DNA of 64,000 nucleotides, taken from assembly GCA_002179805.1 (NCBI GenBank), contig NAVB01000053.1:1-64000 (forward strand). Reading direction: 5' to 3'. The notes below the pieces were generated by a model, which was not told where the DNA came from, made no database searches, and worked only from the letters and a program-made list of their open reading frames with translations. This stretch comes from Acanthamoeba lenticulata (Eukaryota; Discosea; Longamoebia; Acanthamoebidae). Both the position numbers and the translations under genes were made by a program. Below, piece after piece: positions 1,291 to 38,830 of this stretch (its first letter is position 1; each line of letters opens with the position of its first letter).

Positions 1291-1757
1291 GCTTGAGTTA
1301 TGTAGTGACGTGTTTTGCCGCTGATCTAAGTGAGGACAGTGATCGCGTGAGTAAACTTGCGTAGATCGGCTTTGCGAAAAAAGAAAAGCAACAGCGTCGA
1401 CGTGTTCTGCAAACGTTGTTAGATGCGTGGAGGTACCTTACAGTGCGCGGGGGCAACTTAGATTGAGAAGCGCGGCAGCCAACAGAACAAGCTCACCGGA
1501 GGTCACGCGCGAAGCTTCAAGTCTTCCAGCCGCCCGGTTCAATGGGCTTCAGGCTTCCCACCAAATTTCCAAGGCAGGGGCGCGACTCACAATTCGTATG
1601 CTGTCGGTGCCAACGGTGTTTATGAACGTCAACAATGCAGTCAACGCGAGCCAGGGCAGGGGCCACTCCTTGAGGCAAAACGAATCCCTCAGCTTCTCAC
1701 GTTGGATAGGGTACAGGAGGAAGGGGAGCCCAGCGGCAGAGCGGAGAGGATCCCTGT

Positions 1758-3628
1758 TCACGTTGCTTTGCCTCCTTGCACCTTTTTCTTGTGCTTTTGA
1801 AGCTCCTCCTCGTCCTTTGCGCCGATGTACTGCTGCACGGACGAATCGATGATGGAGACGAGGAAGTAGAGCAGCATGCTGATCAGCACCAGGTCCCACA
1901 CGAGCGACAGAAGGCCCTTCTCCTTGGTTGTCACCTCGCCCTCGCTGCGATGCAGCTTGGCCTTCTCGTTTTCGATCAGCGTCCTGCAGCAGCGTTTTAA
2001 AACACATGTTCATGAGCACTCGTAACCGCTCCACCTCTCACTCAAGGGTCATGACGCGTCAAACCTGAGATTGCCGTGCAGCCACGGGATGAGTGACTCG
2101 ACCAGGTTGACGACGTAGTCAAGCGTCTTCTTTGAAAACATGATGATGACCACCACGGTCTGCGCACAACAAGAAACCAGCGTGTTGATTCAATGAGTCA
2201 ACTGACCGAGAAGTCAAGTGGAGCGCCGTACCTGGAGATGAGCCTTGCAGAAGGCCTTACCGATGAGCGTGGCGCCGAAGAAGGTGATGAAGGGCACGAG
2301 GAAGTGACCGCACGTGATACCCGCCAAGTCGAACAACGGGTTGGGCACCTATTGTCCTTTACACGTCAGCCCTTCGCTTGGTTGTTTGTGCGCGTCAGAA
2401 CAAATGGAGGCGATACCGAAGCAAACAGAAGGATGCCAAAGAAGCCCATGTTGCCCAAGATGGAGTACATCAATGGCTTCACCCTGCAGCATACGCCAAT
2501 AAAATCATAAGTCAACCAACAAAAACAAAAAACAATAGCTCAGGCGGCCGACCTTTGAATAATCGGGTCTAGCAAGCCGCCACCCTCTTCGTCATCGTCC
2601 TCTTCATCGGCGTTGAGTTCTTTTAGCGTCTCGCCCGACAAGCGCGCTGCAAGGTGGAGGGGAGGGCACAAGACACGGTCAGACGTCGCTGGGCGTATGC
2701 AGGGGCGGTAACAGCTCGTATCGAACCGGCTCTGGCCACAAAGTAGGGCGGCAGCTCGCCGATGGCCGTGCCGATGCCCCACATGAGGGCCTCGAACTGG
2801 ACCTTGCGGAGCAGCTCCCAGAACGTAACCTGGTGGGCACGCGTCAGTCAGGCTTGAAGCCTCTTTCTTGATGTCGCGGCAAACCTCGTGCTCAAACGCT
2901 GTTGCAGGACAGATGAAGCGGTCTGGTCCGTAGAGATTAAAGGCCGTAGAGTTGCACTCGGTGGCTGCGATCGTGGCCTTAGCGATCAGCGGTCCCAGGT
3001 AGAGGACGAACGTGTGTAAACCCGTGCCTGAAGACAGGTGCGTCAGCGCGGTGGACGACACAGGAGCGTGCGCATGTGCACGATGATGTACGCACCTAGT
3101 CCGACAGAGGACAAGATGCCAAGGAAAACCCACCAAGCGCCGTTGAACATGACCTCTTTGGCGTCCTCCATGGTCTGGATGGCGTAGAACAAGTCAGAGC
3201 TGAGGCAGACCCCCCCCTCTAAAAAGAAGGCCTAGAGCCAGCACCTCGGTGTGCGCCCCAGGCAGCCGATCGAGCAGGAAGAGGGCTATGAAGACGCCAG
3301 CCAAGGCGAGAGACGACTTAACGTGCAGCCGTACGTAGTCGAGACCTTGCCGAACGTACTGAATCACAACAAGTGTGAAGATGGACAGAGAACGCACGGG
3401 CGCCTTCAAGAGCGTAATGTTGCGCCGCTTCTTTTTCTTCTCTTCGCGAAGCAGACGAAGCTTTTCTGCTTGGGCGCGTGCATGCGCTGATCAATGCGAG
3501 TAAAAACATCATCAAAAAGTAGTCTACTACCAACCTGCTTCGTCGTCGATGACATTGCCGGTGTCTCTCTTGTCAGCCGGGGGTCGGCGCAATACTGCCT
3601 CTTCTGCACCCCGCTCTTTCTTGCTCAT
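1758..3628 (-). CDS. VMP1: Vacuole membrane protein 1 (VMP1), ER scramblase-family autophagy protein
   Basis: Multi-pass ER membrane protein of the VTT/DedA superfamily. The family acts with TMEM41B in phospholipid scrambling, autophagosome formation and ER contact sites. The start at 3628 reads MSKKERG and gives a charged cytosolic N-terminus of the expected kind. The exons, in order, carry hydrophobic segments (about 3390-3230), the family signature [18 protein letters not shown] (about 3110-2990), then [20 protein letters not shown] (about 2800-2735), which is almost diagnostic for VMP1, further membrane segments (about 2480-2100), and a C-terminal membrane helix with a lysine-rich tail ending in GGKAT (stop at 1758-1760). 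At least seven exons are inferred from GT..AG borders. The 5' end lies 183 bp from the start of the divergent HPS6-like gene, so the two probably share a promoter region. Confidence 0.93.
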
Positions 3629-3811
3629 CTTGACCGTTCTGGCTACGGTTGGGCCACAGCGCTAATTACAAACCATTTCGAAATGGTTTACGAAATTGCC
3701 AGTAATCGGCGGTGTCCCTTTTCAACGCAATTTTCACCCAGCTAAAATAACAAAAAAACAAAAGCAAAGCCACCGGCAAATCACCCCAGGGGGGGCGACG
3801 CGATCGCTCCA

Positions 3812-6800
3812 ATGTTCAACTTTCAGGCGGTCAAGAGTGGTTGGGGACAGTCGCTGCGCGGGGCACGCAGCCTGGGGACGCTGCTAGCCAAGGATCGCAT
3901 TGGGCTCGTTTCCGATGTTGTGGTTTGCCCCGGGCACGTTGCCCTGCTCCTGCATTCATCTTCGCTTCTGTGCGTGTTCGATGCCGTACCGACCGGTCGT
4001 CAGCTCACCGAGCTCGAGGACCGCACTCTTACCAACGCGCTCTTGAAGCCCCCAGCTGCTGCCACAGCCTCGGGCACGGCCGTCGTGCCCTCCGAGTACA
4101 ACCTCCGCATCCAAAAGGTGGTGCTCGTCTCGCCCCACACCACTGCGCCCATTGTCAACCTCTGGTTCGAGTCCGAGCCGTCGAGCACCGGTGTTGGACA
4201 ACAAGCGGGCCCGGCCCTACGACTCGTAGTTGTGCAGGCCGACGGGTGGCTGCACGCGTGGCGCTGGAATTCAACCGCCTGGCGCTGGAGCCCCTACGCG
4301 CCGGTCCTCCTCCCGCCCTCGCGCGACCCGCGCTCCTTCGGCATCGGCCGCACTGCGCCGCGCCGCCGAGTCGTGGCGGTGACAGCTTCGGCTCCGTCGA
4401 GCGCGTCGTCTACAGCGTCAGCGGCGGCCTTCACACTGCCCTCGCCAGCTGCGGCAGGCGGGCGAGTCGTGTTCTGGTGCGAAACCTACGTTAGAGAGGC
4501 GCCTACGGCCAACGGCCGAGGAGAAAAGCAACAAAAGAGCGAAAGCGAAAACGATGCAGCAAAAACGGCAACACAGGCCAAAACAAAGAAGAAGAAAGAC
4601 TTCACGCGGCTCTGCTGGAGCGAGCTGTGGTTCGAAGAGGCCCCGCGCGCCGCTCCGGCCTCGGGACTGATGGCCAAACCTCCCACCTACCACGACGATA
4701 GTGAGGACGACATTGAAGACGACGACAATGGCTCCGCCGCCCATGTCGGCAAGGCCAACCTGATCGACACACTTGAGGGAGACATCCAACGCTTGTTCTC
4801 GGCCAAGGACGGCGCATGGCTCATGACTGGTAAGACCTCTTTCCCCTTCTGGATTCATCGCTAGACGCGGCCAACTCACAAGCCGCCCTGTGCAGGGACG
4901 ACACTCCACCACTGGTCCTACCACACGCGCACGCTCTACTCGTGTCCGCTGACGTTCACCAACCGGCTGCTGAACTCATCATCTGGTATCTCTAGATTTC
5001 TCTTTTTAATTGTTTATTTATGAATTAAAAAATTAATTGGATTATTTAATTTGCAGGGAAGGAGCCGGACGAGAGCCAGAACGGTGGCGAGAACGGGAGC
5101 GAATATGGAGCGTCCCCGAAGAGGGGCGCCAGCACCCTGGCGGCGGTGGCGGTCACGGTCCACTCGATCACCGGCGAGCTCGTCCTGCTGAGCACTGCCG
5201 GCGAGGTGCTGCTGTGCTCCGTCAAGGAAGACGTCGGCAACGGCGGTCCCCAGGCGGGTGACGTTGTCGCGCCGCCCAACCCCGCCGACCGTGCGTCGGC
5301 GTCCACCCCCACCTCGTCGGCCGCCGGGTCGCCGGCGCTTCAGCTGCGGCGGGTCAAGGGCCGGATCCGCGTCCAGCCCCTGTGCATTTGCCAGGGCCTC
5401 ATCAAAGAGGTACACACCTCCCCTTCTCGGGCTCGTCCATGTTGCGCTGACACGACCCCATCGCGCGCGCAGAACCAGTGGGCCGAGGGCGACGAGGTGG
5501 TCGACCTGCTCGCGCATCGGCATGTCGTTGGCGTGGTGGGCCCCACGGCGGTCCGCATCTTTGACCTGCGCCGTGGGCTCTTTGTCGAGGAGGTGCCCCT
5601 GCCCAAGCCAGTCGTGCTCGAGGGCGGCCTCAAGCGCCGCCTCTTCCCGGCCTCGGCGGCCGCGGCCGTCGGGGGGCTGTGGCGGCTGGGCGGGCTCGGC
5701 ATGCCCGCGGCGAGCGTGGGCGTGTGGGGCGTCGACGGCCTCTGGACCCTCAACTACCCCAAGGTCACCAAGCAGGCCGAGTTCCTCATCAAGGCGGCCT
5801 CGTCCACTTCATCATCATCGTCGTCAACAGCGTCATCAGTATCATCATCGACGACGGCCGGCTCCCCGCTGCGCGACGCTGCCTTACTGTGCAAGGACTG
5901 GGGGCTCGACCGTTGGTACACGAAGTACCTGTTTGACCAGGCCAGCCGCTCCCGCGAGAAGGTCCAGGCCGACGAGAGCCTGAAGCGCCAGCAGCAACAG
6001 CAGCAAGAGACCGGGGAAAACGATGAGGCGCTGCCAGCTAAGACCGGCGACAGCGCGCTGGCCGAGCTGCGTCTGCTGCGCGACTCCTGCGCAGACCTGG
6101 CGCCGTTTTTGGAGAACCCAGCGCTCATCGTCGGCATGCTGGCGTCGGCATCATCGTCCAACCGAAGCGCGATCAATCAGCACCTGGGCACTTTCCTCGA
6201 GATCGTCGGGCCCAAGAGTTCTACGTCGACGACGCCCTCAGCCCCGGTCGACCAACGCGCCTACGCCTTGGTGCGCGTCGCTTTTTTCGTTCTTTGTAGG
6301 GGAAAATTGGGGGGGGGGGGCGAGGAGCAACAGCATACCGGAGAGACGGCGGACTGACGCGGGGTTCCTGCGCTTCAGGAGTTCACCGAGCTGGAGCGCG
6401 AGCGCCAGCGGCAAGCGTTCCACTACACCACGCCCCTCAATCGCCGTTTGATGCCGATCCTGCAGCACTATTACCAGCTCTCACAGAAGCTCAACGAGCA
6501 GAGCCACATCGCCGTAGCCACGGCGCCGCCGGCCTCTTCGTCATCGTCCTCTTCGTCATCAGCGTCAAAGGTGACGTTGTCGCAGCTCGCGTCGGCCGAC
6601 CAGGCGGTGGCGCCGACGGCACGTTCGGCCTTCTCGACGTCGTCGCCCATGTCGCCGGCCGACATGCGGCGCGCCAAGCTGGCGCAGGTCGACAGCGTCG
6701 AGCACCTGCGGCTCATCACGCGGGGCGATCTCGAGCTGGCCGAGGAGGAGTGTCCCGACCTGCTCCTCGACGTCCTGCTCCGCCTCTTCCTGCCCCACCT

Positions 6801-27000: not shown

Positions 27001-30000
27001 CCGTCCGCATCCGGCAGACGGGCTACCCGTTCCGCTACTCGCACGACAACTTCCTCAAGCGGTATGGCTTCCTGGTCAAGGACATCCAGAAGAAGTACGG
27101 GCCCAACCTGAAGCAGAACTGCGAGCTCCTCCTCAAGAGCATCAAGGGCGACTGGTCCAAGGTTCAGGGTACGTTCCTCTCTCTTTTGTTGTCAACAAGG
27201 ACCGGGCCAAGGTTGTTGTTGGGCGTATGGCTGACAATATACACACACACACACGCACGCACGCAGTGGGCAAGACGAGGGTGCTCTACCGGGCGCCTGA
27301 GCAGCGCGGCCTCGAGCTGCAGCGCAACATCGCCGTGGAGCGAGTGACGACGCAGATCCAGGCGGCCGTGCGGCGGATGTTCGCCATCAAGCTCTTCCGC
27401 CGGATGCAGGCAGTCAAGCCCGTCCTCGTGGCGGCCATCCAGGCTCGAGCTCTGGACGCGCTCGAGCGGGCCATCGAGGCGGCCAAGGACATCGAGTTTG
27501 ACATGAAGCTCATCCGCGACTGCAAGGACCTCAAGGCCCTGATCCTCAAGGAGATGGAGGTCACGCGCAAGCTGACCGAGTACATCGGACCGGCGCCCAA
27601 CCACAAGCCCTTCCTGCAGGTGGAGCCCGTCTACGCCAAGCTGTGCGAGGCGCTGACCGACGCCCAGAACATCGGCTACTCGACGCCGCTGGTCACCGCC
27701 GCCCAGGAGATCCAGTACATGATCTCGCAGCGCGTGGAGACCCGCGAGCAGCTCAAGAACGCCGTGGCCAACGCGGCCCGCGGCGACCTCGAGGCCGCCA
27801 TCGCGCGCGCTGAGCAGATCGGGCTCGAGGAGAGCGAGCCCACGCTCGCGGCCGGTCGCCAGGAGCTCGAGCGCATCTACCAGGAGGAGAACCTCATCGC
27901 CGCGCTCCTCAGCGCGCTGGCCACGGGCATGGCCGTGCGCACCAGCGATACGACGTGGGACCACAACGTCATCGACGCCCACACGCTCGCGTCGGCCATT
28001 CAAGCGGCCGATGCCTTTGGCTTCCGCACGGAGCAGGGCAAGCTCGTGCTCGACGAGGCCCGCGTCATCGTTGAGATCCGCCAGAACCTGGCCGTCGGCG
28101 ACTACGAGTCCCTCTCCATGACCCTCAAGAAGGCCACCTCGGCCCTCTCCAAGAACTCCATGTCCCCCGCCACCAAGACCGAGATCGGTGCGTGCCTGGC
28201 ATTCTTTCCCTCTTCGCCTATTTTCGTTAATTTTTATCATTTTTAATTTTAATTAAAAAATTTACTTATCACCCGCATCCACAACAGATGAGGCCTACCA
28301 GGAGCTGTCGCACAACACGGCCGTCAACGACCTCCTCGACAAGGTCCTGCAGGCCATCCAGGAGCACGACCAGGAGACGCTCGACTACGCCGTTCAGCAG
28401 GCCGACTCGCTGCGCATCACCGACCGACCGGAGATGATTCAGGGTTCGTCACCTCTCTTCCCATTTAGGCCATCATTGCGCAGCACATGAAGCTCACCGG
28501 CCTTTATTCTTCAAACAAAACATCAGCGGCCGAGCTGCTCCACCGGATCGTCAACGCGCGCGCCCTGCTGCAGGAGGGTATCGCCAACGTGGACCAGGTG
28601 CAGCTGGAGACGGCCCTCGCCGACGCGGCGTCGTTTGCCTACACGCGCGAGGAGGTGCCCACCGCCCAGCACCTGCTGGAGCGCATCTACGCCATCAGCA
28701 AGGACGCCGATGTCGGTCTCTACTACATGGAGCGCGAGCCCCTCGAGCGCGCCTGGGCCGTACGTCCAATTTTCTTATTGAATTTCATTCTCAAGGAATT
28801 CAAGAAATGCTGACGTGTGCATGACACCTCGACGTGTAGGGCGCGCAAGAGATCAACCTGAAGACGGCGCAGGTGGAGGAGTTGAGGACCGTGCTGTCGT
28901 ACGACGAGCAAAAGTTCATCCAGGAGCAGCTCAAGACGGCCAACAGGCTGGGCGACAAGGGGCGGGCCATCAGGCTCAACATCAAGCTCAAGGAGATCTT
29001 CTTCGGGCAGTTTGGCAAGATGTTCGTGTTCGAGCAGTTTGGCGGGCTGCGGAAGCCGGAGGACTTTGCCAAGGCCAAGCTGCTGGGCCGCGAGGCGCTG
29101 AAGGCGGGCATGCTCAAGTGGTCCAAGTCGCCCATCCCGACGTCGCTCACCAACCTGGACCCGCTGGCGGTCAAGAACGCGACGCGGCTGTTCAAGAACG
29201 TGCTGGGCTTCATGGGCGACCGGCCGCTGCCCTACCCGAACGCGCTCGCGCAGGACCTGCTCGAGCAGTGCCTCGCCGCGCCGGAGCTGCGCAACGAGGT
29301 CTACTGCCAGGTCATCAAGCAGCTCACCGAGAACCCGTCGCCCCAGTCAGTGACCAAGGGCTGGCAGCTCATGCGCTGCTGCCTCCAGACCTTCCCGCCC
29401 TCGGAGGAGTTTGCAAACTACCTCGAGATGTTCCTCGCCGCCAAGGGCAAGGACGACAAGTACATCGAGATGCTCCACGACACCCAGTACGGCGACAAGC
29501 GCACGTCGGCCCCCAACGTCGAGCAGATCCTGGCCGCCAAGCAGTACGTCACGCGCATCGACCTCAACGAGAGCACCCAGGTCGACGCCGCGGTCGTCCC
29601 GCAGGGCTTCGTCCCCGAGAAGCTCGTCGCCGACGACACCGGCAGCGTCATACGCAGCCCCGCTGGCAGCCAGCGCACGGCCCGCGCTCCCGGCCAGCAG
29701 GCCCAGCCTGCAGGCGCCGCCCGGCCCCAGCAGCAGCAGCAGCAACAGCAGCAGGCCCAGCCCGCCGCCGCCGCCGTCCAGCAGCAGCAGTACCAGCAGC
29801 AGGCTGCCTATGAGGACTACGGCCAGCAGCAGCAGTACCAGCAGCAGGACGCCTACGCCGGCTACGGCCAGCAGCAGGAGGAGGTCCAGCAGGTCCTACC
29901 GGAGCCACCGGCCGAGGAGTACAAGCAAGTGGAGGTCGTGTGGGACTACAGCGGCGACGGCGACCCACAGAAGCTGGTGCTGGTCAAGGGCGCCATCATC

Positions 30001-30093
30001 ACCGTCATCAAGGAGTACGAGGGCTGGGCCTACGGTTCGTCGCAGGACGGCCAGGTGGGCCTCTACCCCATCAACTACACCCGGCCCATCTGA
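24094..30093 (+). CDS. Class IV unconventional myosin heavy chain (WW, motor, MyTH4, SH3)
   Basis: Actin-based motor. The start at 24094 opens with a WW domain ([20 protein letters not shown], then TSWDPP). The motor follows in about a dozen exons: P-loop [11 protein letters not shown] (25113-25150), switch [11 protein letters not shown], switch II DIFGFE (26158-26175), [10 protein letters not shown], the actin-binding region with PHYIRCIKPN, and GKTRVLYR at the converter. A helical neck lacks a clear run of canonical IQ motifs (one [16 protein letters not shown]). A long helical tail (27400-28800) leads to a MyTH4 domain (about 28990-29470: [17 protein letters not shown] region, [30 protein letters not shown]), a Gln/Ala/Pro linker (29715-29890) and a C-terminal SH3 (VVWDYSGDG...GWAYGS...GLYPINY). 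No FERM. This is the architecture of Acanthamoeba high-molecular-weight myosin, the founder of class IV. The stop codon is at 30091-30093. Confidence 0.97.
29730..29883 (+). repeat. CAG-rich low-complexity tract in the myosin tail
   Basis: Runs of CAG codons (poly-Gln) mixed with Ala, Pro and Tyr, between MyTH4 and SH3. It encodes a flexible linker and is a likely site of length polymorphism between strains. Confidence 0.85.
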
Positions 30094-32882: not shown

Positions 32883-33989
<1,107 letters not shown>

Positions 33990-34345: not shown

Positions 34346-34542
34346 TCAGTCAGCGAGCCACTCTTCGTCGAGCTCGTCTTCTTCGTCGTCGCTCTCGCCC
34401 TCCATGGCGGCCCGTCTGGCAACAATCTTCTCCATGTTGAATGGCAGGAAGCTGGCCGAGGGCGGCGGCGGAGGCAGCACGCGGTCCTTGGCCGCCTTGA
34501 GCTTGGCCATCCCGAGAGCCGACAGCAGCGAGTTGTACATTG
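34346..34542 (-). other. Candidate WH2-Central-Acidic (VCA-like) module
   Basis: C-terminal exon of the calpain-III protein. The acceptor ...GCGCAG|AG joins ATEE to PMYNSLLSALG. LLSALGMAKLKAA resembles the WH2 helix plus LKK motif with a shortened linker. IVARRAA resembles the C helix (WAVE: I..RR.A). SDDEEDELDEEWLAD is an acidic run with the near-terminal Trp typical of Arp2/3-binding A segments. The stop TGA is at 34348-34346, so the Trp is fourth from the end. Confidence 0.6.
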
Positions 34543-37500
34543 GCTCTGCGCCACACCATTATCATGACAATGGACCGTAAGATGTAACAGCAGTGTAACC
34601 ATGACGATGATGATGACGTGTACCTTCGGTCGCCACATTAGCGGGCGGAGGGGGAGCCGGCGAGGGCGGCGCGGGTTTGGGCGGCGCGGGCGCTAAACAC
34701 CACAAGACGTTGATGTGAGCACTCGCTCGTGGGGGAGGGAGCAAGAGACAGCGAGAGGGACTCGTACCCTTGACGCTGCTGCTGGGCGCCGGAGGAGGCG
34801 GCGCGGCGGCAGCCACGATGGGCTTGGCCGGGTGGGCGATGACCATCAGGGTGTAGGGGTCGAACACCATGCCGCAACCGGGGCACTTGACCTCCTCAGG
34901 GCACACCTTGACCGGCTTCTTCTCCTTCTTGGGCTTCTTCTCCTTCTTCACCTTCTTCGGCTTCTCGTCCGCGGCAGCCACGGGCGGCGGGGCCGCCTCC
35001 ACCGGCTTGGGCGCTTCGGCCGGTGTGGGCGCTGGCGCTACCGCGGGAGCTTCTTCGGTCTTCACGACCGCGGCCGGCTCCGGCACGGGCTCCGGCCGGG
35101 GCAGGGCCTGCGCCTGGGCTGAGACGGGCTCAGGCTCCGGCTCGCCGTTGAGGTGGCGGATGTAGGGCGCGTAGTCCACCTCCTGGAAGCGGACGTGCGA
35201 CCGGTCAGACGGCTTGACAAAGAGGCGCATGTAGAACGAGCCCCGGATGCCCGCCTCGTAGGTGCACGGCGTCACGATCCACGGGTGCGTGTCCGGCCCG
35301 ACGCGCAGAGGCAGCTCGACTGTGGATTACGCGTTACGATTGATTGGAGAGAGAACGGAGCAAGGGTGTGGCCACGTACTGTCTTGGCCATTCTCAAAGG
35401 CGGTCTTCTTGATGATATCCGACTCGGCCGCCACCACCGGGAAGCCCCACTCTGTCCCATCCGCCCCACGGAGCAGCATCGTCACGTTGAGCTCATCGTG
35501 CGGGCTCGAGACAGACCAAAAGGAAGGGGGAGGGGCTCGTACGGTTGCCCTTGGTGACGTAGCAGCCGATGGCCGGGAAGGGCAGGTCGTCGGGAGGTAA
35601 GTCCTGGACCAACAGCAGCGTCACTTCGCATTCCCTGCTCGTGGAGAACAATGAAGACGAAGACGAAAATGTCGTCGCGACTTGCAAGGTCAGCTTCGTC
35701 GTGGGGTGGTCATCGATGCAGGGGAGTGGGAGAGACGGACCGATCCGCCGTGAGCGAGAAGTGGGGGTTCTCCAGGAACGTGGGGTAGTTCATGCAGCCA
35801 CCCGACGTGCCCTCGCCCCAGACGCCCTGCACAACGGAGTCAGTGCGTGAGCTAATGATGAGGATGAGGATGAAGATGAAAAGGAGAACGAGGAGTCAAG
35901 TCGTACGGCGACGAGGTTCTCGCCAGAGTCGTGGAGCGGGGCGAGGACGATGTTGTCGGCCAGACGCGAGAACACGGTGAGGGTGAACTGGGCCTCCTGG
36001 TTGGGGCGGAAGGTCGTCGGGATGAACACATACTCCTTCCCGCCCTCCACCTCCACTTCGCCGTTGACTGCGTGAATTGTGATGAACTCAATGCGTTAGT
36101 TTCAAGTGAAACCCGAGCAGTGTTGAGAAAGTCCTGAGTTGTGCTGAAACGCACCTTCCTTCTGCTTGCGGAACTTGCCCTTGCACATGAGCTCGGCGCC
36201 CTTGGTGCTGATCAGGCGCTGGCCCGGCTGCGGCGACTCGTAGACGTAGAACCCAATGCTCTTGGGCGCGACCGACTTGTCTTCGCCCTGTGTCGCCCGC
36301 ATGTGTGAGTCCTTTGCGGGGGCATCAAGAAGAGGGCGAACACGTTGATGCGCAGAATACCAGATATTGGCCGAGGAAGACGGTAATCTTCTCGCTCTGC
36401 TTGGCGGTGATGCGGAACTGCGGGTTGTTGCGCCACATGCCGTAGTTCAGGCAGCCGCCCGCGGTGAGGCCCTTCCACTCGCCCTGTAGTGTTTGTATGC
36501 CGCGAACGGCGATCAACGTGAGAAGAAGATCTTCACCATTCAGTCGAGGAGAACCGAGCGTGGTTGGGGACGTACGTATTCGACGTGCTTCTGGAGGAGA
36601 TCGTCGGCCGGCTTGACTTCGATGCTCTCGGCGCCCTTGGACGGGTAGAACGACAGGTTGAACGGCGCCTCGACGTTGGGCGTGAAGGTGCAGGGCACGA
36701 TGACGTAGGGGTCCTTCCTGGCCTCCAGATCAAACGTCTTGGACACTGCAGTGAGAGTATGTTCACGTCTGTCAGTGACACCTTCACCCATTCATTCGGG
36801 AAAGGGGACGGCCGACCTTCGGGGGTCTCCCAGAAACCAGACTTGGCGACGAGCATCTCCTTCTTCGCCAGCAGTGGGCGGCGACCTGTTGTCATCATTT
36901 ATGAGATCGGGCGGGGTCGTCGCTTGAGCGCCATGATGGTGGTGGTGGCGAAAGAGTGACGGACCGTTGATGCTGGAGAGGATGTAGAAGCCGATCGAAT
37001 TGCTCGGGGTGAGGTCGTGCCTCATCTTGATGGTCAGCGAGGTCTTCTCCTTGACGGTCAAGAAGAACTGCGGGTTGTTGCGCCACGTCGTGTGATTCCT
37101 ATTGCGTGCCATAGCCGGAAGGTGAGTTGCGCCAACACACAAGACGATGATATCGCCAGCATAATCCACTGTTGGGGCTGGGAGAAAGGACGTACATGCA
37201 ACCGCCAGCGCTCTCGCCCTTCCAGACGCCCTGCACGAGGAAGTGGCGATAACACAAGAGGATGCTGTCACCAGCAGTCCAAGGCTAGATGGAGGGGAAG
37301 GAGGATGTAGGGCGTACGTCAACGCTGATGGAGGAAGTGGCGCCAAGCTCGCGGAAGGAGATGGCTTGGCTCGAGAAGACGCTGAGGGCAAACTCGGACT
37401 CCCATTTGGGATCGAATGTGCACGGGAACACCACGTAGTCACCAGCGGCCAACGTTGCCGCCAGCGAAGCTTTGAGAAGGAGAGGGAAACAATGAGCTTT

Positions 37501-38830
37501 GAAAATCAAGAAGGAAAAAGCACGGGTGTTGTACCATCATCCGGGCTGCTCAGGGGAGAGCGAGCGACGGTGCTTGCAACCGACACAACCTTCTTGTCGA
37601 CCGGACCTACAATGATGTGGATCAGATGGTGCGTGTTTAGAGAGAGGAAGAAGAGCAGGCCAAGCATACCGTCGGCCTCGCAGATGTAGAGACCAAGGAC
37701 GTCAAAATCGGGATTGCGCGCGATCTTCTCGAGGAGAAGCGAGACGGCGGTGTTGTCCTCCTTGACGCTCAGGAGGTACTGGGGGTTGTTGTAGAAGGTC
37801 CGGTGGTTCTTGCAGCCGCCCGAGGTTTCGCCCTTCCACTCGCCCTGAAGGGCGATTTCGGAGGTCCACCTCTTGGACGGGTTGCTGCACGACTGGAGCA
37901 CGAAGGGCTTGGAGAACGAGGTCACCGTGAGGGCGAACCGGGCTTCCATGTTGGGCTCGAAGGTGCATGGGATGATCACGAAGGTGCCCGCGTCATTCTC
38001 ACCTCCAGCCTCCAACTCCAGCGTCAACGCAACTGCAGAAGCCAACGAATCGTCAGCTCAGGCGCGAGTTTACAGCGAGGGCAAGAGCACTAGTCCGCGT
38101 ACTGTGGGGCTTGTTGATGAAGGTGGTCTTGGCCACGATGAACTTGGTAGGCGTCGAGATGACCTTGCGGTTGGTGCCTGAGGCGGAGAGTGAGCTCAAA
38201 CAAGACAAGAAAAAGCGTAGGAAGCCAGAAGAGAAAATGGCGCACCATCACTCTTGAGGAGGTAAAAGCCGATAGCCCGGCAGTCCTCTTCCTTGGTGAC
38301 GAGTTGCTCAAGCACAATCTCTACCCTGCCGTCCAGAATGGATGGATTTAGTGCTAATTGCAGGAGAAGTTGGAGGAAAGGAGAGTGTGGTACTTGGTGT
38401 GGCCCTTGATGTTGAGGAAGAACTGCGGGTTCTGGCGCCACTGGTTCGTGTTGAAGCAGCCGCCGGCACTGCGCTGCGCCACCGACCACTCGCCCCGCTT
38501 GGTGGCCTTGGTGACCTCCTGAGCCTCCTCTTCCACGAGCTTCTTTTCCTCTTCGGCCTTTTGCCTATCCTTTTCCTTCTCCTCCTCTTCTTTGTTGCGC
38601 TGAGATGGTGCTTGAGGTGCCGCTGTTGCCGGGGTGGGTTGCGCTGAAGAAGATGGAGCTGGTGAGGCAGTGGGGAGCAGGGCCTCAAGATCTGCCGCAG
38701 TCTTGCCCGCCTTCACCTGAGACAAGAACTGCTGCAGAAGCGACTGGAGTTCATTGACCTGTCGCTTGAGTTGTTCCTTTTCCTCCTTCTCCTGCACGAG
38801 CTGGGTCTGCAAGTCACCCAACGACGCCAT
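34346..38830 (-). CDS. Five tandem calpain domain-III (C2-like) modules with coiled coil and WH2-C-A-like tail
   Basis: The start MASLGDLQTQLVQEKEEKEQ at 38830 opens a coiled coil, then a Pro/Ala and Lys/Glu linker. Five calpain large-subunit domain-III modules follow, each with G.W....(S/T).GGC......(W/F)..NPQ, IGFY or similar, and (I/V)PCTF.P. They start at about 38490 (GEWSVAQRSAGGC), 37850 (GEWKGETSGGC), 37235 (GVWKGESAGGC), 36485 (GEWKGLTAGGC) and 35830 (GVWGEGTSGGC). There is no C2 protease core and no PEF domain. After them come a Pro/Ala/Lys linker, a CPGCGM segment (about 34880) that could be half of a zinc site, and proline runs. The C-terminus has MYNSLLSALGMAKLKAAKD, PPPPPSASFLPFN, MEKIVARRAAMEGE, then an Asp/Glu run ending in DEEWLAD. 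That end matches the C and A segments of WAVE/WASP Arp2/3 activators; the first part is WH2-like. Function as nucleation-promoting factor is inference. Confidence 0.83.

Follow-up and report, generated by a model that had tools for sequence, protein, structure and literature searches.

WASP and WAVE proteins carry a WH2 motif, which brings an actin monomer, followed by a C (central/connector) helix and an acidic end with a Trp, which engage the Arp2/3 complex. There are few classes of Arp2/3 activator, and each decides in its own way where branched actin grows. Here, we analyse a gene of Acanthamoeba lenticulata which joins a tail of this kind (WH2, C helix and acidic segment; VCA) to five modules of the calpain domain III type (DIII). 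The gene lies on the minus strand of a 64,000-nucleotide window (contig NAVB01000053.1 of assembly GCA_002179805.1, positions 1 to 64,000), which is contig C50 of the own-genome assembly searched in this work (48.5 Mb, 1825 contigs). It is likely to encode a nucleation-promoting factor (NPF) for the Arp2/3 complex. The evidence comes from Pfam matches to DIII, profiles of the tail, the presence of the tail in 19 of 49 homologues, a tree built from DIII modules, the small number of amino-acid changes between two haplotypes and the structural model of an orthologue.

Structure of the gene

The start ATG at 38830 and the stop codon at 34346-34348, as given in the initial annotation, are confirmed. 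Between them lie 18 GT-AG introns, each 60-106 bases long, and the spliced model is a single open frame of 1024 codons. The junction at intron 15 matches the KGDKWGFP of orthologues. The C-terminal elements already recognized from the DNA, namely LLSALGMAKLKAA, IVARRAA and an acidic run to the terminal DEEWLAD, are all held by the last exon (34346-34545). Exon 18 (34624-34692, proline-rich) links this exon, in frame, to the one containing the end of the fifth DIII module.

A copy of the gene and its flanks, with 97-98% identity, is carried by another contig (C1492) and is most simply explained as the other haplotype. In this copy, the 18 GT-AG splice-site pairs are all kept and no frame is broken. 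Differences between the copies affect 29 of 3075 exon sites and 49 of 1366 intron sites; within the exons, third codon positions account for 25 of the 29 substitutions, with 24 silent codon changes versus 4 amino-acid changes, and the protein sequence of the tail is identical. The gene model is therefore sound and the protein is under constraint. It might still be argued that the last exon is part of another gene, the fusion resulting from a misjoined model. However, beside the preservation of splice sites and frame in the second copy, the same fusion occurs in the 19 tail-bearing homologues. Two of them, P0002 (MMETSP, Stereomyxa transcriptome) and P0006 (TRINITY in its name, as for a transcript assembly), seem to come from transcripts, and each unites the modules and the tail within a single chain. 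The joining of the last exon thus receives indirect support, through the chains of relatives, and a misjoined model is highly improbable.

A C-terminal tail of the WASP/WAVE type

The tail was studied with an alignment (A1) of the A. lenticulata protein and 15 of the 17 tail-bearing matches of the first homologue search, the near copies P0007 and P0012 being omitted; another alignment (A5) contained 15 of 17, without P0027 and P0030. Among the target and its 15 relatives, four columns are invariant: the Leu of the WH2 LK, both Arg of the C helix and the Trp. When compared with the PDB, the profile of these sequences matches N-WASP (6uhc, E 1.8e-8, profile positions 5-68 of 68) and WAVE1 (3p8c, E 5.7e-6, positions 4-67), as well as Spire. 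At E up to 10, 13 of the 14 matches are WH2/VCA proteins, the other being a transposase (E 0.39). A reversed-sequence control profile, of same composition and conservation, gives no NPF among its 5 PDB matches (best E 0.03).

Profiles that exclude the target lead to similar results. With the WH2 part only (V-only), the first 12 of 14 PDB matches are WH2 domains (Spire, N-WASP, INF2, MIM, WAVE2, VPA1370, WIP). With the C-acidic part only (CA-only), the top 3 of 8 matches are WAVE1 (E 0.0045-0.0054) and the other five are unrelated (best E 0.21). The full profile of the 15 relatives' tails recovers the whole target protein among 3967 sequences (E 5.1e-19). The target tail reaches 74.0 bits with it, whereas none of 5000 shuffles exceeds 9.4. 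Thus, the match of the target tail is not due to chance. The WH2 motif is recognized through the family profile, Pfam PF02205 giving no match on the target alone. The C helix with basic residues and the following acidic segment with its Trp emerge from the alignment and the PDB profiles, the reversed control being clean.

Several observations weigh against an NPF tail. Pfam WH2 is not found in the target protein, its tail included. Of the 16 tails, 8 from relatives were submitted by themselves to the same search; none reaches the cut-off and four are listed below it (E 0.0011-0.19); likewise, the target gene is missing from the 28 matches listed in a Pfam WH2 search of the own genome. Used alone against the PDB, the target tail finds N-WASP only at E 0.89. 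As a query for homologues, run on 249 candidates, it finds a single one, that of Stereomyxa (E 0.48). The CA-only match to WAVE1 is modest. Finally, in the model of the Balamuthia orthologue, helices are present at the WH2 and C positions, as well as at the N-terminus, but confidence is low for those at WH2 and C (predicted local distance difference test, pLDDT, of 57 and 49-63 in 10-residue blocks). The WH2 of the target is divergent and is missed by Pfam and by single-sequence searches, the target tail alone being too short or too divergent to reach significance. Of the profile searches suggested by the initial annotation, Calpain_III was recovered by Pfam and WH2 and CA by family profiles, while Pfam WH2 failed on the target.

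The C-acidic part of the target tail is better conserved than the WH2, with 48.5 bits for the CA-only and 17.0 bits for the V-only target-free profile. This imbalance, together with the failure of Pfam to detect the WH2, would suit a protein which binds Arp2/3 without activating it, as a competitive inhibitor or a scaffold resembling Arpin, the DIII modules then placing an inhibitor or a branch-recycling factor. Arpin has an acidic tail with a Trp and no WH2, and we know of no Arpin-type inhibitor in which a C helix follows a segment resembling WH2. In the amoeba family, both elements are conserved, and WH2 domains rank first among the matches of the V-only profile. An inhibitor or scaffold is an unlikely alternative to an activator.

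Other loci of the own genome were considered during the tail search. Matches on C611, C1810, C657, C189 and C845 (E 0.011-0.85) were dropped, as they reach at most 7.6 bits with the family profile and correspond to low-complexity stretches. A locus on C71 (L034), with 16.0 bits and E 0.0028, was set aside as encoding a protein of repeated WH2 motifs. In three homologues (P0023, P0014 and P0016), the tail ends with two or three acidic-Trp repeats, for instance EEWDDDWD; with such repeats, contacts with the two sites of Arp2/3 could be of another kind.

Distribution and origin of the fusion

Two protein searches, in which the best 8000 candidates by shared words were scored, yielded 39 homologues and a further 10, hence 49 distinct ones. 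No other was obtained when the tail region by itself served as the query. No dictyostelid-named match is found among the 8000 candidates scored; with such restricted scoring, this is no proof of absence. Nor does any match bear the name Acanthamoeba. A pattern test detects the tail in 19 of the 49, with longest upstream proline runs of 4-8. Named bearers are Balamuthia mandrillaris (Discosea), Stereomyxa (Amoebozoa incertae sedis) and Arcella intermedia (Tubulinea), so that the architecture does occur in other amoebozoans. The closest named relatives of the target are those of Balamuthia and Stereomyxa (42 and 41% identity, respectively, across some 70% of the protein); like the form of the gene, they suggest a centramoebid-like amoeba, probably Acanthamoeba. 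In tail proteins, the local profile detects from four to seven DIII stretches, some of the lower counts perhaps reflecting incomplete sequences. Other homologues are labelled kinase, RhoGEF, RasGAP or protease according to the Pfam accessions of the matches.

A tree was built from modules 2-4, counted from the tail end, the tail itself being excluded. It contained the target and 18 of the 19 tail homologues (P0030, incomplete, was omitted), 10 of 15 kinase proteins (without P0031-P0035, which have another layout or too few modules) and two rows labelled GEF, P0009 and P0015, the latter having no RhoGEF domain listed and being placed by likeness; P0026 was omitted. All 19 tail rows are located on one side of one branch (support 99/96, 98% of 200 bootstrap trees), opposite the 10 kinase and 2 GEF-labelled rows, the root not being fixed. 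This separation in a DIII-only tree suggests, at present sampling, a single origin of the DIII-VCA fusion and its retention in two amoebozoan phyla. Very probably, these proteins form an amoebozoan family of Arp2/3 NPFs of single origin.

In a second tree, of single modules (104 domains from 21 of the 50 proteins), target modules 2, 3 and 4 group with modules 2-4 of the four kinase proteins included and with the modules at corresponding positions in most tail proteins, with supports of 0.85, 0.84 and 0.92, respectively. Module 3 of P0008, P0014, P0016 and P0027 stands outside the corresponding group. Groups of modules 1 and 5 are weakly supported (0.37 and 0.17), and module 1 of the kinases falls apart from that of the target.

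Taken together, the gene structure, the 19 tail-bearing homologues, the single-origin tree and the profile matches to N-WASP and WAVE1 support the earlier proposal of a WASP/WAVE-type tail on a DIII array.

Arrays of DIII modules with other outputs were also encountered. A paralogue in the own genome (L017, G000:C215:11000-20500, about 1640-6206, minus strand) combines DIII modules and a kinase, whose pieces are 63-97% identical to the metagenome protein P0010; C790 (L019), which resembles it in the DIII part, could represent the other haplotype. In P0047, a 2386-residue metagenome protein, nine DIII-like stretches are combined with PF13402, a further kind of output for such arrays.

The DIII array

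Pfam finds five Calpain_III stretches in the target (E 1.4e-75) and no protease core (Peptidase_C2) in the whole protein, in agreement with what had been read from the DNA. In the same scan, at E up to 1, no WH1, GBD or WAVE homology domain is present; apart from Calpain_III, two families under the cut-off were listed, C2c1_Nuc-II and Cep192_D8, and both were rejected. Membership of calpain domain III is supported by Pfam and by profile comparison, the fold having been tested on the Balamuthia orthologue. Fold matches outside calpains (collagen-binding and GOLD-type domains, capsids and others) look like common beta-sandwiches and were not retained.

It had been proposed that the modules recruit the protein to membranes as C2-like domains binding Ca2+ and phospholipids. 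Compared with the profile of 15 modules of the amoeba family, calpain-2 has two insertions, DEDDEDGERG and HRRRQR, and both stretches are absent from the family. The former is located at the acidic loop of calpain-2 and the latter, in our reading, at its basic loop. Because the stretches matching these loops are absent, a C2-like domain responding to Ca2+ and phospholipids is not recovered by the comparison, and the proposed Ca2+/membrane role is left unsupported. Ca2+-dependent binding of acidic phospholipids that would bring the tail to membranes is compatible with an NPF but seems rather doubtful.

A putative mechanism

The following scheme may be envisaged by analogy with WASP and WAVE. 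The WH2 would deliver an actin monomer, Arp2/3 being bound and activated through the C helix and the acidic tail. The role of the proline runs would be to supply profilin-actin or to recruit SH3 proteins. A pair of VCAs binds Arp2/3 better than a single one; pairing of two tails might be achieved by the N-terminal helix, which in the Balamuthia model is a single helix over residues 5-61. The DIII array likely is the addressing and control part, because it occupies the place of WH1-GBD in WASP and of the WAVE complex; it would act as a regulatory platform replacing them. Its ligand would be a protein as likely as a membrane.

The proline-rich linker recognized initially is indeed present; 44 Pro are found among the 190 residues upstream of the tail, and the linker of the Balamuthia model is mostly without structure. 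At 34832-34906 (minus strand), the linker contains a motif, VCPEEVKCPGCGMVFDPYTLMVIAH, similar to CPSCSTHFDVMEARKKH of the Stereomyxa linker. It may possibly be a small zinc knuckle; no such motif was seen in the Balamuthia linker.

Features of the gene and its surroundings

Table 1. Position of the gene and of its predicted elements in the window.
Feature	Residues	Position	Strand	Basis
Whole gene, 19 exons (coordinates include stop)	1024 aa	34346..38830	minus	splice model and second copy
N-terminal Leu/Gln-rich region, possible coiled coil	1-40	38711..38830	minus	sequence; inferred from Balamuthia model
DIII module 1 (spans 3 introns)	107-244	37893..38512	minus	Pfam and local profile
DIII module 2	255-384	37345..37862	minus	Pfam and local profile
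DIII module 3	388-516	36615..37335	minus	Pfam and local profile
DIII module 4	524-657	35940..36593	minus	Pfam and local profile
DIII module 5	664-794	35192..35921	minus	Pfam and local profile; intron 15 junction agrees with orthologues
Pro/Lys-rich linker (exons 17-18)	795-957	34628..35191	minus	sequence; orthologue model
WH2 motif NSLLSALGMAKLKAAKDR	963-980	34481..34534	minus	V-only family profile; target found by target-free profile
C (central/connector) helix FNMEKIVARRAAME	994-1007	34400..34441	minus	alignment, invariant RR; CA-only profile
Acidic segment ending DEEWLAD, invariant Trp1021	1008-1024	34349..34399	minus	alignment and profiles

Elsewhere in the window, an open frame at 28840-30090 (plus strand) has MyTH4 and SH3 domains and is perhaps a myosin tail. 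An exon of the adjoining Methyltransf_4 gene, presumably of the tRNA m7G methyltransferase type, is found at 33556-33837 (plus strand).

Comparison with known systems

WAVE/SCAR and N-WASP have the same order of WH2, C helix and acidic segment with a Trp near the end. The C region of WAVE1 (SRRIAVE) shares RRxAxE with the family described here, and the WH2 of the target is one residue shorter than that of N-WASP between LL and LK. As in WASP and WAVE, a proline-rich stretch precedes the VCA. In contrast, five DIII modules stand in place of WH1, GBD and the WAVE homology domain, and to our knowledge this control region matches no described Arp2/3 activator.

The word calpain is absent from the main text of an inventory of WASP, WAVE, WASH, WHAMM, WAWH and WAML in which Acanthamoeba castellanii is named (Kollmar, 2012; PMC3298513), and likewise from PMC12050087 and PMC8847673. 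In that inventory, WAWH is an amoebozoan VCA protein without WH1, as is the target, but it has a GBD (PMC3298513), whereas none was found in the target. More generally, the literature searched, which leaves aside most subscription journals and bioRxiv preprints, yielded no paper joining calpain DIII to an NPF. To that extent, the arrangement appears new among described NPFs, as first suggested.

With respect to calpains (DIII of calpain-2, C2-like domain of calpain-7), the target differs by the absence of the protease core, by five modules in a row and by the missing acidic- and basic-loop stretches. The amoeba DIII-kinases (P0010, P0025 and the own-genome paralogue on C215) and the DIII-RhoGEF (P0009) have a kinase or a RhoGEF as output and no VCA tail. 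The ten kinase proteins on the tree have four modules versus five in the target; modules 2-4 of P0010, P0013, P0021 and P0022 group with its modules 2-4.

It is conceivable, at somewhat less than even chances, that Arp2/3 activators of a family so far undescribed, which is present in two amoebozoan phyla or more, use a calpain-DIII array (five modules here, four to seven in relatives) in place of control by Rho GTPases or the WAVE complex. The array would then be an exchangeable addressing platform for a VCA, a kinase or a RhoGEF, and one ligand could trigger both actin growth and signalling. DIII-VCA proteins have probably been overlooked as a class of actin regulators, in which, judging from sequence comparisons, a VCA tail of known kind would be placed under a DIII control region that appears to be new.
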